Below, in pieces: positions 20,124 through 27,690 of a stretch of DNA of 64,000 nucleotides. The stretch spans positions 2,914,001 through 2,978,000 of the forward strand of contig NZ_JAODVR010000001.1 in assembly GCF_025399835.1 (NCBI RefSeq). Reading direction: 5' to 3'. This stretch comes from Haloarchaeobius sp. HME9146. GTDB taxonomy: Archaea; Halobacteriota; Halobacteria; Halobacteriales; Natrialbaceae. Both the position numbers and the translations under genes were made by a program. Position 1 is the first letter of the stretch, and every line of letters begins with the position of its first letter. Below the pieces are notes generated by a model. That model was not told the DNA's origin and ran no database searches. It saw only the letters and a list, made by a program, of their open reading frames with translations.

Positions 20124-20547
20124 ACACGCAGCGTATCGTGATATGTCAATAACTATGTGGTGGATACTCTCGTCGGTGGCAGAGAAGACGCTGCTTTCTG
20201 CAGCTAAGTCGATATTATCCTCGATTCGACACCAGTTAATCGTGTGGCTACCGGCTGGACCATCCGTGGTCCCGTGACAGATGCTGCGTGGCGGTCCCGC
20301 GGGTAGATGCTGCATAACAGCGGCCTCGAACGTCCCCTGGAGCGAACATCCTTCCCCGTGAGAGACTGCGACGAGCCGGCAGTCTGGCGTAAGGGCGCTG
20401 TCAGGGTCGATAGACGGTGCCTACTTCGATTAAACACCGGTTTTGACACAATTCTGGTAATTAGGTAAGTCCCTGTCTCTGCATGGTGGTACCGTGGCAC
20501 TCACGGAGGCCCGGAGCACTCGTCGCCGGCGTGGGCGATGAGCGCTC
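20124..20547. other. Long spacer ahead of the SipW-type cluster
   Basis: No gene is seen. The region is more AT-rich than its surroundings near 20424-20467, where GATTAAAC and GTAATTAGGTAAG could be promoter boxes for the cluster on the plus strand. If so the first gene has a leader of roughly 100 nt that contains the hairpin at 20548. Confidence 0.4.
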
Positions 20548-20568
20548 CCGGTGGTTCGACTCCGCCGG
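20548..20568 (+). promoter_or_regulatory. T-arm-like hairpin, copy 1
   Basis: CCGGTGG - TTCGACT - CCGCCGG: a 7-bp stem (one G-U pair) closed by a 7-nt loop identical to a tRNA T loop (TTCGANN). It ends 30 nt before the ATG at 20599. A second G-rich hairpin (TCCCC-GA-GGGGGGA) follows directly. A six-codon frame (ATG at 20589, MTENVR) overlaps the main start. Confidence 0.7.
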
Positions 20569-20598
20569 TGAGCGTCCCCGAGGGGGGAATGACCGAGA

Positions 20599-22380
20599 AT
20601 GTCAGGTGAGAACTTCGAGATTTCACGGCGAAAGGCGCTAGCGGCTATCGGGACGACAGGTATCGCGGCCGCGGGGGCGGGACTCGGCACGTCCGCGTAC
20701 TTCAGCGACACGGAGGAGTTCACGGGCAACCGGCTGACTGCTGGGGAGCTGGACCTGCAGGTCGACTGGGAGGAGCACTACGTCGACATGCGGGGGTCGG
20801 AGGCCGAGATCAGCGGCGTTCGAGAACTCGGCAAGAACGACTCCGTCCAGGACGGCGAGTACGGCTTCCCGGACCCCCAGAACCCGCTGCTCGCGATTTC
20901 GGAGTCGAAGAAGACCGAGTTCCAGAACGCGACCTCCATCGAGTGTTTCCCGGACAGCGTCAACAACAACGGGATACAGCAGAATTTCAGCGACGAGAAC
21001 GTGTGTGGGGCGAACAGCGTCCTCGGTTCGGTCGACGCGAAGGAATCGGTGCTCGACCCGCAAAACGACTTCGGGCCCAACGACGAGATGCACCGGACGA
21101 TGAACGAGGATACCGTCGTTACCGACGATTCCGGGAACGTCACGGACACGCGGGCGCTCATCAACCTGTCCGACGTGAAGCCGGGTGACTGTGGCGAGCT
21201 AACGCTGAGCTTCCACCTCTGTGACAACCCCGGGTACGTCTGGCTTCAGGGTGGTGTGGCAACGGACAAAAACGGCGACCCGCTCATCGGCGAGGGGGCG
21301 ATCACCGAGCCCGAGTACAACGACCCGGACGAGGACCAGAAGGAGGGCGGCGCGCTGAAGTCGTCGGATTCTGACGGGAAGAAGACCGTCGAACTCCTCG
21401 ACGAGATCCAGACCCTCATGTGGTACGACGAGGACGGCGACAACGTCTACGAACCGTCAGGGAAGGGTGGCAAGGTCGACGTGATGGTCGTCCTCGACCG
21501 GTCGGGGTCGATGGACAGCGACACGAACGACGATTCTTCCTCCAAGAAGTGGCAGAACACGCTCTCCGGTGCGAAGAACCTCGTGAACGCCCTCGGGGGC
21601 GGCGCAGAGGCAGGACTGGTTTCGTTCGCCGACTCTGCCAGCGTCGATCAAGGACTCACTTCGACGATGAGCGATGTCACCTCGTCAATCAGTGGCTTGA
21701 GTACCGGAGGGGGAACCAACATGGAGGCGGCCATCGACACGGCGCAGTCCGAACTCGCGAACGGCCGGTCCGATGCGAGCTCCATCATGGTCATCCTCTC
21801 TGACGGTGAGCCGACCGTCGGGGATTCAGACACGACCGATGGGACCGATCCCACGGACAACGCCACGGCCGCTCGCGACGCCGGCACGGAGATCTTCACT
21901 ATCGCGTACGGTGGCAGTGCCGATACCACGCTCATGGAGTCGCTCGCCAGTGATACCAATAACGCGTACACCGCCAGCACGAACGAGGTCGAGAAGGTCT
22001 TCTCGAACATCAGTCAGGCGGTCGCGGGCGAGAAGTGCTTCTACCGCGGCAGTCTCCGGAACGCGCTGAACCTGCTGAACGGCTACACCGCCGACGGCGC
22101 CACCGAGGTCGCGGGCGGGATGGGCATCCCGCTCGACGGTGACCGCCGGGACGGCAGTTTCACCGAGGTCGAGAACATGAACTCCTCGGACACCACGAAG
22201 CCCAACGGCGGCGAGAGTTCGGACCGCCAGCCGTTCGTCGACGCCACGACGAACGCCATCGGCTTCGCGTGGTGGCTCCCGGTCGACCACGCCAACGAGA
22301 TCCAGGGCGACTGGGTGGAGTTCGACATCGGCTTCTACACCGAACAGGCCCGCCACAACGACGGCTCCGGGCAGGCCTGA
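20599..22380 (+). CDS. SipW-dependent secreted protein with von Willebrand A domain
   Basis: A 593-residue exported protein. N-terminus: ISRRKALAAIG, a hydrophobic core and GTSAYFSDTE, the SipW-type signal of TasA/camelysin-like proteins. A TasA-like domain follows (SDVKPGDCGELTLSFHLCDN). At about 296-480 a von Willebrand A domain is inserted, with the MIDAS motif DRSGSMDS (Asp300), TGGGTNMEAA and ILSDGEPT. The TasA-like part then resumes and ends in the block IGFAWWLPVDHANEIQ, shared with the next two genes. Likely a surface fibre or adhesive subunit that binds partners through a metal ion; this role is inferred. Confidence 0.88.
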   Translation: MSGENFEISRRKALAAIGTTGIAAAGAGLGTSAYFSDTEEFTGNRLTAGELDLQVDWEEHYVDMRGSEAEISGVRELGKNDSVQDGEYGFPDPQNPLLAISESKKTEFQNATSIECFPDSVNNNGIQQNFSDENVCGANSVLGSVDAKESVLDPQNDFGPNDEMHRTMNEDTVVTDDSGNVTDTRALINLSDVKPGDCGELTLSFHLCDNPGYVWLQGGVATDKNGDPLIGEGAITEPEYNDPDEDQKEGGALKSSDSDGKKTVELLDEIQTLMWYDEDGDNVYEPSGKGGKVDVMVVLDRSGSMDSDTNDDSSSKKWQNTLSGAKNLVNALGGGAEAGLVSFADSASVDQGLTSTMSDVTSSISGLSTGGGTNMEAAIDTAQSELANGRSDASSIMVILSDGEPTVGDSDTTDGTDPTDNATAARDAGTEIFTIAYGGSADTTLMESLASDTNNAYTASTNEVEKVFSNISQAVAGEKCFYRGSLRNALNLLNGYTADGATEVAGGMGIPLDGDRRDGSFTEVENMNSSDTTKPNGGESSDRQPFVDATTNAIGFAWWLPVDHANEIQGDWVEFDIGFYTEQARHNDGSGQA

Positions 22381-22435
22381 GGGCTCTCCACCAGCCCCTC
22401 CCATCGCGCTCTGAACCACCACCCACGTCGGCGCA

Positions 22436-22454
22436 CGACGGTTCGACTCCGTCG
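22436..22454 (+). promoter_or_regulatory. T-arm-like hairpin, copy 2
   Basis: CGACGG - TTCGACT - CCGTCG, a perfect 6-bp stem with T-loop sequence, ending 30 nt before the ATG at 22485. Followed by GTGGG and a second hairpin with a UUCG loop (TCTCCC-TTCG-GGGGGAGA). The stem differs from copies 1 and 4 by compensated changes. Confidence 0.7.
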
Positions 22455-22484
22455 GTGGGTCTCCCTTCGGGGGGAGAGACAGCC

Positions 22485-24161
22485 ATGTCAGACGACGCGT
22501 TCGAACTCTCACGACGGACGGTGCTCGCAGCGCTCGGGACGACAGGGGTGGCCTCGGTCGGAGCTGGATTCGGAACCAGTGCGTACTTCAGCGACAGGGA
22601 GACGTTCGACGGCAACCGGCTGGTGGCCGGCGAACTCGACCTGCTCGTCGACTGGACGGAGCACTACATCGACGGCCGGGGCGACGAGACGGGGGTCGAG
22701 GCCACGCGAGACGACCCCGATGACGACAGCTACACGCCCGTTCCGACCGCCGACTATCCACAGCTCTGGGTGGCCGACAAGGACGCGTTCATGACGGAGA
22801 CGGCGGTCGAGTCGTTTCCCGACACCGACCAGAAGGGGACCGCCGACGACGGGGTGCAGGACGAGATACCGTCCAGCAGCGAGTGCCGCTACATGAAACA
22901 GTTCCTCAGGCAGAACGGGGAGTGGGTCTCCCCGCTGGCGTCTCCGGGTCGGACCACCGGCGACGTCCACGGGCAGACGACGGACGTCACGGTCGGGGAC
23001 GCGGAGGCCTCTGACCCACTCATCGACCTGACCGACGTCAAGCCAGGGGACTTCGGCGAGGTCACGTTCAGTCTCCACCTCTGTGACAATCCTGGCTACG
23101 TCTGGATGAACGGCTCGCTCGACGACGAGCTCACCAGCGAGAACGGGGTCAACGAGGCCGAAGCCGACGACCCCGACGAGGACCAGTACGCCGACGGGTC
23201 CCTGAAGGATTCGGCCGATTCGACGAAGACGGTCGAACTCCTGGAGGCGCTCCGGGCGGTCATGTGGTACGACTTCGGGACCGACGAGGACGGCGACGGG
23301 TACCCCTGGGAGGGGCCGTACAGCGGCGACGACGCCGAAGGAGACAACGTCCAGCAGTCGGGAGAACCGAACCTCATCGCACAGGGGTCGCTGAAGGCCG
23401 TCCTGCGCGCGTTCGAGTCGGGGACCCACGGCATCGCACTCGACGCGAACCCGATGGCGAGCAGTTCGAGCACGCAGGTCCAGCCGGCCGACGGGGGCAA
23501 CGGCGACCCCGGGAACACGGATTTCACCGCCACGCGCTACGAGAAGCCCCAGGAGGGCATCGTCGAGTGCGCCGACATCCACGGCGAGTGGCTGACCGTG
23601 ATGAAGGTCGAGGAGGAGAACCTCCCGAACGGCGGCGATTCGGAGACGTTCAACACGTCCGCGGGGAGGATACGCATCAAGGGCATCGGGTCGGACGGTA
23701 CCCAGCCGATGCAGCTCGCCTTCGATTCGTCGTTCCCGGTCACCGGCGTGCTCGTCAAGGGCGGCCAGGATTCGCTGAGCTGGACCCCGGATGGACAGAC
23801 GTTCTCGTCCGGAACCAGCGGCTACCACTACGACTTCGCGGACGAGACGACCACCGACGCGTGGGACTCGACCGACGTCGCCCTGCACGCGCCGACCGGC
23901 AAGAACGGGAACCGCAGGGCCATCTCGAACGTCCAGTTCTGTATCCTGCCGGACGACAGCGGCTCCGGGAACGGCGACCCGGAGCGTGACTGCTTCGTGG
24001 CTTCGACGACCGCGTCCATCGGGTTCGCGTGGTGGCTCCCCGTCGACCACGCCAACGAGATCCAGTCCGACACCGTCGGGTTCGACCTCGGGTTCTACAC
24101 CGAGCAGTGCCGCCACAACGACGGGGCCGGGCAGCAACCGGAGGGTGGGAGCAGTCCCTGA
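22485..24161 (+). CDS. SipW-dependent TasA-like secreted protein, second
   Basis: A 558-residue paralogue of the protein at 20599. Signal: ELSRRTVLAALG, hydrophobic core, GTSAYFSDRETF. TasA-like motif LTDVKPGDFGEVTFSLHLCD follows. In place of the von Willebrand A domain there is a different insert at about 300-490 with ECADIHGEWLTVMKVEEENL and a Gly/Ser-rich segment, resembling a small beta domain; I do not recognise it. It ends in the conserved IGFAWWLPVDHANEIQ and FYTEQCRHNDG. Export by SipW-type peptidase and a role in a surface structure are expected from the family. Confidence 0.87.
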   Translation: MSDDAFELSRRTVLAALGTTGVASVGAGFGTSAYFSDRETFDGNRLVAGELDLLVDWTEHYIDGRGDETGVEATRDDPDDDSYTPVPTADYPQLWVADKDAFMTETAVESFPDTDQKGTADDGVQDEIPSSSECRYMKQFLRQNGEWVSPLASPGRTTGDVHGQTTDVTVGDAEASDPLIDLTDVKPGDFGEVTFSLHLCDNPGYVWMNGSLDDELTSENGVNEAEADDPDEDQYADGSLKDSADSTKTVELLEALRAVMWYDFGTDEDGDGYPWEGPYSGDDAEGDNVQQSGEPNLIAQGSLKAVLRAFESGTHGIALDANPMASSSSTQVQPADGGNGDPGNTDFTATRYEKPQEGIVECADIHGEWLTVMKVEEENLPNGGDSETFNTSAGRIRIKGIGSDGTQPMQLAFDSSFPVTGVLVKGGQDSLSWTPDGQTFSSGTSGYHYDFADETTTDAWDSTDVALHAPTGKNGNRRAISNVQFCILPDDSGSGNGDPERDCFVASTTASIGFAWWLPVDHANEIQSDTVGFDLGFYTEQCRHNDGAGQQPEGGSSP

Positions 24162-24237
24162 CGACCACCGTCGTCCAGCGGCGCCGACCAGACCCACGGT
24201 GGTTCCCCGGGGCCAACTCCTCGCGCGGTCCCGTGCG

Positions 24238-24254
24238 GACGGTTCGATTCCGTC
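24238..24254 (+). promoter_or_regulatory. T-arm-like hairpin, copy 3
   Basis: GACGG - TTCGATT - CCGTC, a perfect 5-bp stem with a T-loop (TTCGATT), ending 33 nt before the ATG at 24288. GGTGGG follows as in copies 2 and 4; a weaker second stem (CTCCA...TGGGG) lies between it and the start codon. Confidence 0.7.
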
Positions 24255-24287
24255 GGTGGGTCCTCTCCACGATGGGGGTACCAACCA

Positions 24288-26042
24288 ATGTCAGAAGAAG
24301 CTGGATTCAGAGTCACGCGACGGCGTATGCTGGGCGCACTCGGGACCGCAGGGGTCGCCTCTGCGACCGCCGGTCTCGGGACGAGTGCGTTCTTCAGCGA
24401 CCAGGAGACCTTCGAGGCGAACCGGCTCGTCGCCGGCGAGTTGGACCTCATGGTCGACTGGCAAGAACACTACAGCGACTGGAGCGAGGCCGAAGCGCGC
24501 GCCGCGCCCAGTGCGCGGATGGTCGACGGCCCAGGGGAGCTCGAAGAGGGCGAGTACGCCCTCCCGACCTATCTCGACCCGATGCTCGCCATTGACGAGA
24601 CCGACGTCGAGGCGTTCATGGACGCGACGGCCACAGAGGCCCAGCCGGACGAGGACGGTGACGGCGAACAGGACCTCGTTCTGACCCGGAACCAGCTCCG
24701 GTGGCAACACAGCACGTGGAGCGACGAGCGGATAGAGCGGGAGTTTCGCGCCCAGTTCGCGAACGTCCCCGACGACCTGACGCGGCCGCTCATCGACCTC
24801 GGCGACGTGAAACCCGGTGACTTCGGTGAGGTGACGCTGAGCGTCCACCTGTTCGACAACCCGGGCTACCTCTGGCTGACGGGCACACTCGTCGCGGGGT
24901 TCGAGAACGGGCACAGCGAGCCGGAGTCGGACGACAAGGACGAGCGGGGCGACGACCCCGGCGAGGCCGAAGTCGTCGAGCTGCTCGACGAGGTCCAGGC
25001 GGCCGTCTGGCAGGACGACGGCGACAACATCTACGAGGACGGCGAGACGGTCACCTCGCCACACGACGTGGACTCCCCGAGTACCATCGACCTGACCGCC
25101 GACCAGGCGCTCCTCGCCAAGGGGAGCCTCCGCGAGGTACTCTCGGTGCTCTCGAGCGGGAACGGGATTCCGGTCGACGCCGACCCACGGACGAACGACC
25201 GGACCTGCTTCGCCAACTCGACGACCCGGTACTTCGGGTTCGCGTGGTGGCTCCCCGTCGACCACGCCAACGAGATACAGACCGACTCGGTGACGTTCGA
25301 CCTCGGGTTCTACACCGAGCAGTGCCGCCACAACGACGGCCGCGGGCTGCCGCCCCGCGAGCACGTCACACTCCGGGGCGACTACGCGCAGGCCGCTGGC
25401 TTCGAACCGGTGACGGACCGGGCGGCGGCCGGCGACGGCTCCTGGGGCTCGCTCGACGACGCGGACAGGGCCTTCCTCTACCTCGGCCCGGACTTCGCGT
25501 CGTTCAACACCCTGCCGTCGTTCACCGTCGACGATATCGAGGAGATTTCCTATCGCACCTGGTCGGACACGGTCACGAATCCCTCGAACCCGAACTTCTA
25601 CGCCAGCATCTACACGCGGGCGGCCAGCGACCCGAACCCGGACGCCTGGTACGGCAAGCGCCTGACGCTCGACCCGGCCTACGCGACCGAGACGGCGAAC
25701 CCGGACGTGGACGCACCCGCGGGTCAGTGGAATCGCTGGACGACGCGAGCAACGTCGCAGAACACGCTCGGCGTGTACGACGCGAACCGGTACGGGGTGG
25801 GATTCGGCTACACCGACGGCACGATACCGACGCTGTCGGACCTCCAGTCGGCGGCCGCGTTCGACTGGGAGGACTGGCGGAGTGCGGCTGCTTCGACGGC
25901 CATCGACTACGGCGCACAGGAGGTCAAGACGATATCGGTCGCCGTCGGGAACCCCTGGTGGCCGGATTTCACCGGCCACCTGGACGCGATCACGGTACAG
26001 CTGACCAGCGGCGAGGAGCTGCAGGTCGACCTCGAGCCCTGA
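24288..26042 (+). CDS. SipW-dependent TasA-like secreted protein, third
   Basis: A 584-residue paralogue with signal VTRRRMLGALG...GTSAFFSDQETF, the TasA-like motif GDVKPGDFGEVTLSVHLFD and the shared YFGFAWWLPVDHANEIQ block at about 318-334. Unlike its neighbours that block is not at the end: about 230 more residues follow, with Trp- and Asn-rich segments (GNPWWPDFTGHLDAITVQL) that look like a carbohydrate- or cell-wall-binding beta domain, although I cannot name the family. The three paralogues thus keep one core and vary the added domain. Confidence 0.85.
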   Translation: MSEEAGFRVTRRRMLGALGTAGVASATAGLGTSAFFSDQETFEANRLVAGELDLMVDWQEHYSDWSEAEARAAPSARMVDGPGELEEGEYALPTYLDPMLAIDETDVEAFMDATATEAQPDEDGDGEQDLVLTRNQLRWQHSTWSDERIEREFRAQFANVPDDLTRPLIDLGDVKPGDFGEVTLSVHLFDNPGYLWLTGTLVAGFENGHSEPESDDKDERGDDPGEAEVVELLDEVQAAVWQDDGDNIYEDGETVTSPHDVDSPSTIDLTADQALLAKGSLREVLSVLSSGNGIPVDADPRTNDRTCFANSTTRYFGFAWWLPVDHANEIQTDSVTFDLGFYTEQCRHNDGRGLPPREHVTLRGDYAQAAGFEPVTDRAAAGDGSWGSLDDADRAFLYLGPDFASFNTLPSFTVDDIEEISYRTWSDTVTNPSNPNFYASIYTRAASDPNPDAWYGKRLTLDPAYATETANPDVDAPAGQWNRWTTRATSQNTLGVYDANRYGVGFGYTDGTIPTLSDLQSAAAFDWEDWRSAAASTAIDYGAQEVKTISVAVGNPWWPDFTGHLDAITVQLTSGEELQVDLEP

Positions 26043-26088
26043 CGGTCTCACCACCCACACGGAGCGGTCCCCTGACCGCGGGCCGAGA

Positions 26089-26107
26089 CGGTGGTTCGAC
26101 GCCACCG
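26089..26107 (+). promoter_or_regulatory. T-arm-like hairpin, copy 4
   Basis: CGGTGG - TTCGACG - CCACCG, a perfect 6-bp stem with T-loop TTCGACG. It ends 17 nt before the ATG at 26125, closer than the other copies, with GAGGG as a possible ribosome binding site in between. Confidence 0.7.
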
Positions 26108-26124
26108 GTGGGCGTAGAGGGACG

Positions 26125-26898
26125 ATGCAACAGCCATCGAGCCGCCGTCGCGTCATCGCCACGCTCAGCGGTGTCGCCCTCACCGGGCTGGGGGTCGGGG
26201 CCGTACACGAAGCGCTCGACCTCGACCAGGTGGCGTTCAGCTCGCGCGCGGCGCTCACACCCGACGGTGAATCGGTCGACCCAGCACCGGGAGCCACGGA
26301 CGGTGCCCGGCACGCCCTCCTGGTCGCGTGGCGGGAGGAGTACAACGGCGAGCTGGTCGAGGACGCCACCCTCCAGACCGCAGACGAGGTGGCTAGCGGG
26401 CCGTTACTCGAGATAACCGACGCCAAGCCGGGAGACGAGGGACTGCTCGTCCTGCACGTCGAGGTCTTCGGCGACCGCCCGGGTCGCGTCCGGCTCTCGC
26501 TCCCACTGACGAAAGCGGCGGAGAACGGGCAGAACGAACCGGAGGAACACGCGCCTGACCCGTTGCCCGACAAGGGCGAGTTGCAGCGACACGTCGACGT
26601 CGAACTGTGGTACGACGACGGTGTCCTCGTCGAAGGGGTTGGTGGCTGCAACGGCAACCGCGACATGGGGGAGACCCACATCGCCGAGGGGACGCTGGCG
26701 GAGGTCAGCGAGCAACTCGCGGCCGGTCGCCCGCTCGTCCATCCGGGGAAGAGCGACGGGTGTCTCTCGCCGGGTCAGTCGTTCTGTGTCTCGCTCTCGT
26801 GGTCGATCGACAGGACCGTTCGAAACAGCATCCAGTCCGACAGTGTGGCGTTCTCGCTCGGCCTCGGTCTGGAGGACTGTGCCGGAGGTGACGGATGA
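26125..26898 (+). CDS. Secreted TasA-related small protein
   Basis: A 257-residue protein with SSRRRVIATLSGVALTGLG, an Arg-rich then hydrophobic export signal; the SipW-type YFSD end is missing and replaced by DLDQVAFSS. The central motif ITDAKPGDEGLLVLHVEVF matches the DVKPGD-x-GE core of the upstream proteins, and SIQSDSVAFSLGLGLEDC matches their C-terminal strand. It appears to be a smaller, diverged member of the same fold, perhaps a minor or anchoring subunit. Its upstream hairpin ties it to the same unit. Confidence 0.75.
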   Translation: MQQPSSRRRVIATLSGVALTGLGVGAVHEALDLDQVAFSSRAALTPDGESVDPAPGATDGARHALLVAWREEYNGELVEDATLQTADEVASGPLLEITDAKPGDEGLLVLHVEVFGDRPGRVRLSLPLTKAAENGQNEPEEHAPDPLPDKGELQRHVDVELWYDDGVLVEGVGGCNGNRDMGETHIAEGTLAEVSEQLAAGRPLVHPGKSDGCLSPGQSFCVSLSWSIDRTVRNSIQSDSVAFSLGLGLEDCAGGDG

Positions 26899-27096: not shown

Positions 27097-27690
27097 ATGA
27101 CACCGGAGGAGTGCTCGCGTCGTCGGGTCCTGCAGCTGGCGGGAGTGCTCGGTGCGGCCGGACTCGCCGGTGGAGCCGCGACCCACGCGCTCCTCTCGTC
27201 TCGAGAATCGTTTCCGGGGAACACGCTCCAGGCCAGCTCGTTCGACCTCCGGGTCGCATGCAAGCGGGACGACGGGTTCACCGTCCCGGCCCAGGACAGC
27301 GACGCCTTCCCGACGAGGTGGGCCAACTCGGCGGACATGCACGTCCCGCTGGCGCTGACACCCGGTGAGACCCGAACGATGACGGTCGCGCTGCGGGCCA
27401 CGGAGCCGGTCGAGACCGCGCTCCGAATCACGGGGGGTTCGGACGATTCGGCCGGAGAACTGCGGCTCTGGCGGGACGAGGACGGCGACACCCGATGGGA
27501 GGACACCGACGCCGCCATCCAGACGAATCCGTCTCCGGTGGTCCTCGACGAACTCCCGGTCGACCTCGGGCTGGGGGTGTGTGGTGGGACGCCGCGGCGA
27601 ATCGGGCTGGAGTGGGCCGTACCGCCGGACGCACGGGCGACCGAGTACTCGCTACGACTCGAATTCATCACAAGACAATGTCAAGATTGA
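27097..27690 (+). CDS. Small secreted protein of the SipW-type cluster
   Basis: A 197-residue protein with a twin-Arg-like signal (SRRRVLQLAGVLGAAGLAGG) and ALLSSRESFPGNTLQ, which lines up with the YFSDTESF-x-GN region of SipW substrates. The rest is a small beta-rich domain (LTPGETRTMTVALRATE) like the TasA core, with two or three cysteines (ACK, GVCGG, RQCQD) that could form a disulfide. It ends 20 bases before the signal peptidase gene and is probably co-transcribed with it. Exact role unknown. Confidence 0.75.
   Translation: MTPEECSRRRVLQLAGVLGAAGLAGGAATHALLSSRESFPGNTLQASSFDLRVACKRDDGFTVPAQDSDAFPTRWANSADMHVPLALTPGETRTMTVALRATEPVETALRITGGSDDSAGELRLWRDEDGDTRWEDTDAAIQTNPSPVVLDELPVDLGLGVCGGTPRRIGLEWAVPPDARATEYSLRLEFITRQCQD

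Follow-up and report, generated by a model that had tools for sequence, protein, structure and literature searches.

tRNA-like elements in the leaders of SipW-type genes of haloarchaea and their putative role as t-element-type punctuation signals

Introduction

A stretch of 64,000 nucleotides (nt) from Haloarchaeobius sp. HME9146 (contig NZ_JAODVR010000001.1, positions 2,914,001 to 2,978,000 of the forward strand; hereafter the window) contains four genes for secreted proteins, each preceded by a hairpin resembling the T-arm of a transfer RNA (tRNA). An earlier note on this DNA regarded these hairpins as a functional RNA or, alternatively, as a by-product of gene duplication. Here, we ask to what structure the hairpins belong, how closely this structure is tied to SipW-type genes across archaeal genomes, and what it may do in the messenger RNA (mRNA).

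The hairpins of the window belong to a larger tRNA-like structure

All four hairpins were confirmed on the plus strand at the places claimed for them. As judged from the sequence, they are the T-arms of a larger predicted tRNA-like structure (e1 to e4), and the GGTGGG that follows the stem is the 3' strand of an acceptor-like stem. The earlier note stated that no acceptor arm is present, which has to be withdrawn, as complementary 5' strands occur upstream in all four copies and extra arms in e3 and e4. It also overlooked the GG segment and the second hairpin. The parts are as follows, with scores from R1, a covariance model of the T-arm.

20500..20504, plus strand: e1 acceptor-like 5' strand CTCAC, pairing with GTGAG at 20568-20572
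20550..20566, plus strand: e1 T-arm GGTGG TTCGACT CCGCC (44.3 bits)
20568..20572, plus strand: e1 acceptor-like 3' strand GTGAG
20576..20587, plus strand: e1 second hairpin CCCC/GGGG, 5' of the start codon (from folding)
22421..22426, plus strand: e2 acceptor-like 5' strand ACCCAC, then GTCGG with a D-loop-like GG
22437..22453, plus strand: e2 T-arm GACGG TTCGACT CCGTC (51.7 bits)
22455..22460, plus strand: e2 acceptor-like 3' strand GTGGGT
22460..22477, plus strand: e2 second hairpin TCTCCC-TTCG-GGGGGAGA (from folding)
24191..24197, plus strand: e3 acceptor-like 5' strand GACCCAC (cloverleaf-like fold)
24198..24237, plus strand: e3 GG segment and two extra arms (from folding)
24238..24254, plus strand: e3 T-arm GACGG TTCGATT CCGTC (42.2 bits)
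24256..24262, plus strand: e3 acceptor-like 3' strand GTGGGTC
26054..26058, plus strand: e4 acceptor-like 5' strand CCCAC, then ACGG
26064..26079, plus strand: e4 extra arm GCGGTC-CCCT-GACCGC (from folding)
26090..26106, plus strand: e4 T-arm GGTGG TTCGACG CCACC (36.1 bits)
26108..26112, plus strand: e4 acceptor-like 3' strand GTGGG

The R1 model was built from a 41-sequence alignment (A3) of 37 pattern matches before RR-signal genes in the first family genomes, four DUF1102-like neighbours and two others. e1 to e4, from which the model was itself partly built, scored 36-52 bits, and the next-best match in the window 12 bits. The pattern GGTTCGANNCCNNCGGTG matched six places in the same genome versus none for its reversed control, which had no match across all 125 family genomes. 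The GGTGGG is kept in e2, e3 and e4, and replaced by GGTGAG in e1, where CTCAC departs from CCCAC jointly with its partner GTGAG, likewise in L127. A clear second hairpin was not found in the short leader of e4. The T-stems end 32, 31, 33 and 18 nt before the start codons (ATGs at 20599, 22485, 24288 and 26125); among the distances given previously (30, 30, 33 and 17 nt), only that of e3 was exact.

The acceptor-like stem and the T-stem covary

We analyzed the sequence upstream of 179 copies to obtain the layout of the whole structure. GTGGG(N) has an upstream complement, (N)CCCAC, usually with NC(N)GG on its 3' side. A perfect partner of 5 base pairs (bp) to the copy's own strand was found within 90 nt upstream in 141 of the 179 copies (37 +/- 5 in dinucleotide shuffles), and the acceptor 5' strand was detected in 153 when the GG was included in the rule (30 +/- 5 in shuffles). 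The linker between the acceptor 5' strand and the T-arm was short (approximately 8-16 nt) in 79 copies and longer in 74, where folding usually gives one or two arms (mean z -1.6); the fold of these long forms resembles that of a class II tRNA lacking the D-stem. The T-loop reads TTCGAYT in 174 of the 179 copies. Altogether, there is good support at the sequence level for an acceptor-like stem of approximately 6-7 bp and a T-arm of 5-6 bp that would stack to approximately 12 bp, and for a linker between them that carries a D-loop-like GG and, optionally, one or two arms.

The four copies of the window show little covariation by themselves, and it is the copies of other genomes that bear out the covariation claimed for them. 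Among 136 matches, four of the six T-stem pairs change on both sides (31 cells versus 4.6 in shuffled data), in an alignment made to the model and hence biased towards it. In the alignment of the 79 short-type copies (A5), seven of the 13 pairs of the T-stem and the acceptor stem change on both sides, with a covariation score of 0.177 versus 0.102 +/- 0.007 in shuffles (none of the 500 as high) and at most 0.06 in slid versions. The outermost acceptor pair, which played no part in choosing the strands, is of the Watson-Crick type in 45 short-class copies versus 27.8 after permutation (0/10,000 as high). Most of the rare acceptor variants are compensated, namely GTGAG-CTCAC (e1 and L127), GCGGG-CCCGC (L168), GCGGG-CCCGT (L172) and ATGGGTC-GACCCAT (a fifth copy in the genome of Haloarchaeobius sp. 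HME9146), while those of L165, L178 and L186 are compensated only in part. The copies are related by descent, and these counts are not of independent events. With this reservation, both stems covary in the sequences compared.

The element precedes SipW-type genes across haloarchaea

At E <= 0.01, which is lenient enough to admit noise, R1 matched 325 of the order's 392 genomes; at E <= 1e-8, it matched approximately 115 of them, in seven families (counted from the table). A single genome had up to 15 matches at E <= 0.01. In a sample of 295 genomes across the phylum, 19 had a match at E <= 1e-7, and none of these lies outside the order. An exact scan of 84,980 species yielded 115 stretches, nearly all haloarchaeal, and an open reading frame (ORF) with an RR signal starts 20-120 nt downstream in 122 of 152 matches. 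Of the few non-haloarchaeal matches, some resemble genuine bacterial tRNA genes (L275, L277 and, among viral contigs, L321) and others are the Lactobacillaceae mini-tRNAs described below. No exact match to the core 20-mer was found in the Haloferax records. Thus, the covariance-model search proposed in the earlier note recovered the element across haloarchaea, nearly always directly before SipW-type genes and with covariation in other lineages.

To be independent of the neighbouring gene, 135 R1 matches were gathered across the order by score alone. In 123 of them, an ORF with an RR plus hydrophobic signal, mostly of SipW type, starts on the same strand at most 100 nt downstream, and two further such genes sit beyond 100 nt. 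Among the remaining 10 are two copies before a gene without a signal and one before a SipW-like protein that lacks RR; the others have longer leaders or ORFs that are short or unclear. TIGR04088 matched 89 of the 121 N-terminal 70-amino-acid pieces of the downstream genes. The link to SipW-type genes is not absolute, because two copies on the minus strand of L155 (1601-1637 and 4921-4957) precede genes without a signal peptide, whose products start with MALTI(A/T)DF.EE...LT. In L010, L011, L037 and L041, the same element precedes DUF1102-like secreted proteins, with a leader of approximately 84-89 nt, a GTG start and an ATG-containing stretch in between. Literature searches on SipW leaders in haloarchaea returned nothing relevant.

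One may suppose that the element is functionless and was simply copied along with duplicating SipW genes, as tandem paralogues often have one copy each and many of the downstream proteins are related. We give this explanation very little credence. The stem changes are compensated and the T-loop is nearly invariant across many genera, and the structure is kept although the mature parts of the downstream proteins fall into 29 clusters (E <= 1e-10, 60% coverage). Since stem and loop are conserved where the remaining leader diverges, duplication alone, the alternative raised in the earlier note, is insufficient. Moreover, three of the seven TIGR04088 places in the genome of Haloarchaeobius sp. HME9146 (one in the window and two elsewhere) have no copy, so that gene and element are separable. 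We do not claim that leader and signal peptide were shuffled as a unit among unrelated mature proteins, because 120 of 125 mature parts fell together under single linkage; the 29 clusters are the outcome of a stricter cut. Likewise, we set aside an identification of the proteins as fimbriae (Taf), as the model matches of the 70-amino-acid N-termini rest largely on the signal region and the window proteins fall below the Taf models.

The element mimics a tRNA

The element shares with tRNA (Rfam families RF00005 and, for tRNA-Sec, RF01852) the T-loop TTCRANY, the stack of approximately 12 bp of acceptor and T-arm, the D-loop-like GG and, in long forms, a cloverleaf-like shape. It differs from tRNA in having no D-stem, CCA or conserved anticodon, and its scores lie below the Rfam thresholds. 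A D-stem, an anticodon arm with a conserved anticodon and CCA, as expected of a tRNA gene, were not found in the copies. ARAGORN called no tRNA gene in the window, where the Rfam tRNA matches stayed below threshold; the segment of e3 (24191-24262) weakly matched tRNA-Sec with 26.5 bits, the cut-off being 47. No Rfam family covers the element above its gathering score, and the only matches above threshold are ordinary tRNA genes in phage loci. Under default settings, ARAGORN called 12 of the 179 copies tRNA, including tRNA-Arg, -Gly and -Ser forms, versus none of 895 shuffles and eight of 895 shuffles of the upstream part only. Tools for finding tRNAs can therefore annotate SipW leaders as tRNA genes.

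A derivation by copying from a cellular tRNA was considered and rejected, as the GTGGG acceptor strand occurs in none of the 47 tRNA genes examined in the same genome. The element has the T-stem GGCGG/CCGCC in common with tRNA-Gln(TTG) and tRNA-Val(TAC), but the T-loops of these two read TTCGAAT.

The element lies on the sense strand, close to the start codon

The elements lie on the sense strand, and 107 of 127 are close behind an upstream ORF. No AT-rich (TATA-like) peak was found upstream of or inside the element. The end of the acceptor 3' strand is separated from the start codon by a median of 23 nt (interquartile range 22-25). The stretch in between forms a hairpin with a minimum free energy (MFE) of -3 or below in 141 of 150 leaders (mean z -1.3); this is mostly CCCC/GGGG, with many variant stems, and its end lies at a median distance of 8 nt from the start. 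Four-mers resembling Shine-Dalgarno (SD) sequences were present in 101 of 153 leaders versus 71 expected, an enrichment too modest for SD sequestration to be the sole function. The SD mechanism is reportedly unused in Haloferax volcanii, as is said to follow from work of Kramer et al. in 2014.

GNCGG-N7-CCGNC also reads as an inverted repeat whose distance from the gene is constant, and could as such be a DNA operator bound by a transcription factor. We regard this as highly improbable, given that the element is nearly always on the sense strand before its gene, that it mostly follows an upstream ORF closely with no AT-rich promoter signature, and that a second, distant strand covaries, as fits RNA.

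A t-element-type signal is the best-supported reading

A known element of the same layout is found in the same genome, where it lies directly before the 5S ribosomal RNA (rRNA).

L363:1455-1500 (C1 approximately 761,520-761,566 of the genome): 5S rRNA leader t-element ACCGAT-ATTGGATCGTTGT-CGCGG-TTCGATT-CCGCG-GATCGG

This t-element and the short form of the SipW-leader element have in common the acceptor-like stem, the linker with GG (TTGG in 5S), the TTCGATT T-arm and the acceptor 3' strand, which in the 5S leader is directly upstream of the RNA to be released. Copies with an acceptor-like stem closing a T-arm and a shortened D/anticodon region, the hallmarks of a t-element, make up 153 of the 179 by the P1+GG rule. 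The SipW-leader element differs in its location, the mRNA leaders of protein-coding genes, and in its many copies. Its acceptor strands are (N)CCCAC/GTGGG(N) instead of CCGAT/ATCGG, extra arms are frequent, a second hairpin and then the start codon come after it, and its cleavage is putative. The 5S t-element of H. volcanii is processed by tRNase Z (PMC3296008, PMC4326828), and in the same organism t-elements on both sides of a CRISPR RNA were in-vivo cleavage substrates of RNase P and tRNase Z (PMC4946936, PMC7521656). The layout shared with the 5S leader and the published cutting therefore lead us to take the SipW leaders as t-element-type punctuation. An RNase P/Z-type processing signal, one of the functional RNAs envisaged in the earlier note, is the best-supported of these because of the 5S rRNA t-element; on the T-arm alone, such a signal was rejected until the acceptor strand turned up.

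In our judgement, it is somewhat probable that the element is a t-element-type punctuation signal that sets mRNA 5' ends beside a small hairpin close to the start codon. Sequence comparison supports the RNA structure well; what follows about cleavage, its effects on stability and translation, and any regulation, is our inference. The leader would fold as a tRNA elbow with acceptor and be recognized by tRNase Z, perhaps also by RNase P. A cut directly 3' of the acceptor 3' strand would fall approximately 22-25 nt upstream of the AUG. It would detach the cistrons from one another and leave each with a short leader with a 5'-terminal hairpin, which in turn may set the stability, translation and relative dose of each cistron. 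The link to SipW signal peptides would then reflect one co-inherited expression cassette for surface/fimbria-type proteins. In mitochondria, tRNAs punctuate polycistronic transcripts. There, too, tRNA-shaped units lie between cistrons; the unit in the SipW leaders is a tRNA mimic and not a functional tRNA gene.

Several observations weigh against this reading. A general processing signal is expected before many gene classes and the element keeps to SipW-type genes; neither CCA nor tRNA identity elements are evident in the copies; the acceptor-like 5' strand was not found by the chosen rule in 26 of the 179 copies; the outermost acceptor pair of the long class shows no Watson-Crick covariation (p = 0.40); and in the MFE fold of e1 a local pairing, GCGCTC/GAGCGT, competes with the acceptor-like stem.

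The first of these points is better explained by the main rival, a translational operator: a tRNA-binding protein would bind the tRNA-like leader without cutting it, open or close the second hairpin and so coordinate the SipW regulon. The thrS operator of E. coli is a precedent, in which the mRNA leader mimics anticodon arms read by the cognate synthetase, likewise directly before the start codon. An aminoacyl-tRNA synthetase, a T-arm-modifying enzyme or a regulator of surface-protein genes would be candidate binders. The strict gene-class specificity, the fixed distance to the start codon, the second hairpin at the SD place and the excess of SD-like four-mers described above all speak for an operator. 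However, no conserved anticodon-like loop or identity element is present, the extra arms are variable or absent, and the conserved parts are the T-arm and acceptor, those read by general tRNA-processing enzymes. The SipW leaders differ from thrS in mimicking just these parts, and in that the genes encode secreted surface proteins. We regard an operator as conceivable yet doubtful.

Alternatively, the excised tRNA-like RNA may itself be the product, a trans-acting small RNA that reports surface-gene expression, e.g., as a competing substrate of RNase P, tRNase Z or modification enzymes. The strong independent fold, especially of long copies (z -3.5 in the L106 type), and the copies that pass as tRNA with ARAGORN are consistent with this idea. 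Nevertheless, we consider it quite improbable, as the arms differ widely among copies and as the distance to the start codon is fixed for a single class of genes, a constraint that an RNA acting in trans could do without.

Genes of the cluster and other copies in the genome

The genes following the elements, and the gene closing the cluster, are as follows.

20599..22380, plus strand: SipW-type secreted protein with a VWA domain (TIGR04088 25.9 bits; PF00092)
22485..24161, plus strand: SipW-type secreted protein (TIGR04088 22.5 bits)
24288..26042, plus strand: SipW-type secreted protein (TIGR04088 22.5 bits)
26125..26898, plus strand: secreted protein with an RR signal (RRRVIATLSGVALTGLGVG), below TIGR04088
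27731..29278, plus strand: archaeal/SipW-like signal peptidase I, closing the cluster (TIGR02228 114.8 bits; NF046067 105.8 bits)

Three of the four genes that had been called SipW-type are so by TIGR04088, and the gene at 26125, which has an RR signal, falls below the model. A further SipW-type gene of the cluster (27097-27690) lacks such a leader. The genome has five R1 matches at E <= 1e-7, namely the four window copies and one elsewhere. All precede SipW-type genes, with the fourth window gene counted on the strength of its RR signal only.

G000:C1:2121685-2121800 (L362): fifth copy, before a SipW-type gene, with two extra arms and a 7-bp acceptor GACCCAT/ATGGGTC

This copy was called tRNA-Val by ARAGORN. 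Besides the window copies, the non-tRNA sites examined in the genome that have the T-loop of the element and a T-stem of at least five pairs are solely this fifth copy, the 5S leader and two sites in a tRNA array of the second replicon, in a check that did not resolve minus-strand sites. On the second replicon (G000:C2:577156-578683), tRNA genes with unusual acceptors are densely arrayed, and the array may stem from a virus or a plasmid.

Mini-tRNAs in phages

Phages and prophages, mostly of the Lactobacillaceae type, contain a mini-tRNA of the same short layout, with an acceptor-like stem, CTGGTGAC and the T-arm GGTTCGATTCCG. We found it in viral contigs (L320, L322 and L365-L377) and in Pediococcus and Lapidilactobacillus (L195, L237, L274 and L285). 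It is typically located 9-20 nt after a stop codon, sometimes twice at a distance of approximately 0.5-1.7 kb, and sometimes directly followed by a real tRNA gene. The acceptors differ, e.g., GCTTCT/AGAAGC, and no Rfam family was found for it.

Possible implications

A bolder idea is that the tRNA mimic forms a haloarchaea-wide regulon, in which the mimic in every leader would couple the synthesis of SipW-type surface/fimbrial proteins to tRNA processing as a dedicated processing or sensing switch and not a mere cut site, the mini-tRNA layout being used independently in Lactobacillaceae phages. We hold this to be unlikely. If the proposed cleavage is true, the mRNAs of an entire class of secreted proteins are punctuated and dosed in archaea by the enzymes of tRNA processing, a role for which the only other cases met here are the 5S rRNA leader and engineered constructs. 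The SipW leaders would then be a concrete set of substrates through which tRNase Z and RNase P act on archaeal mRNA. They would also constitute a new family of the Rfam type whose regulon is clear, and would make SipW-type surface proteins simple to find.

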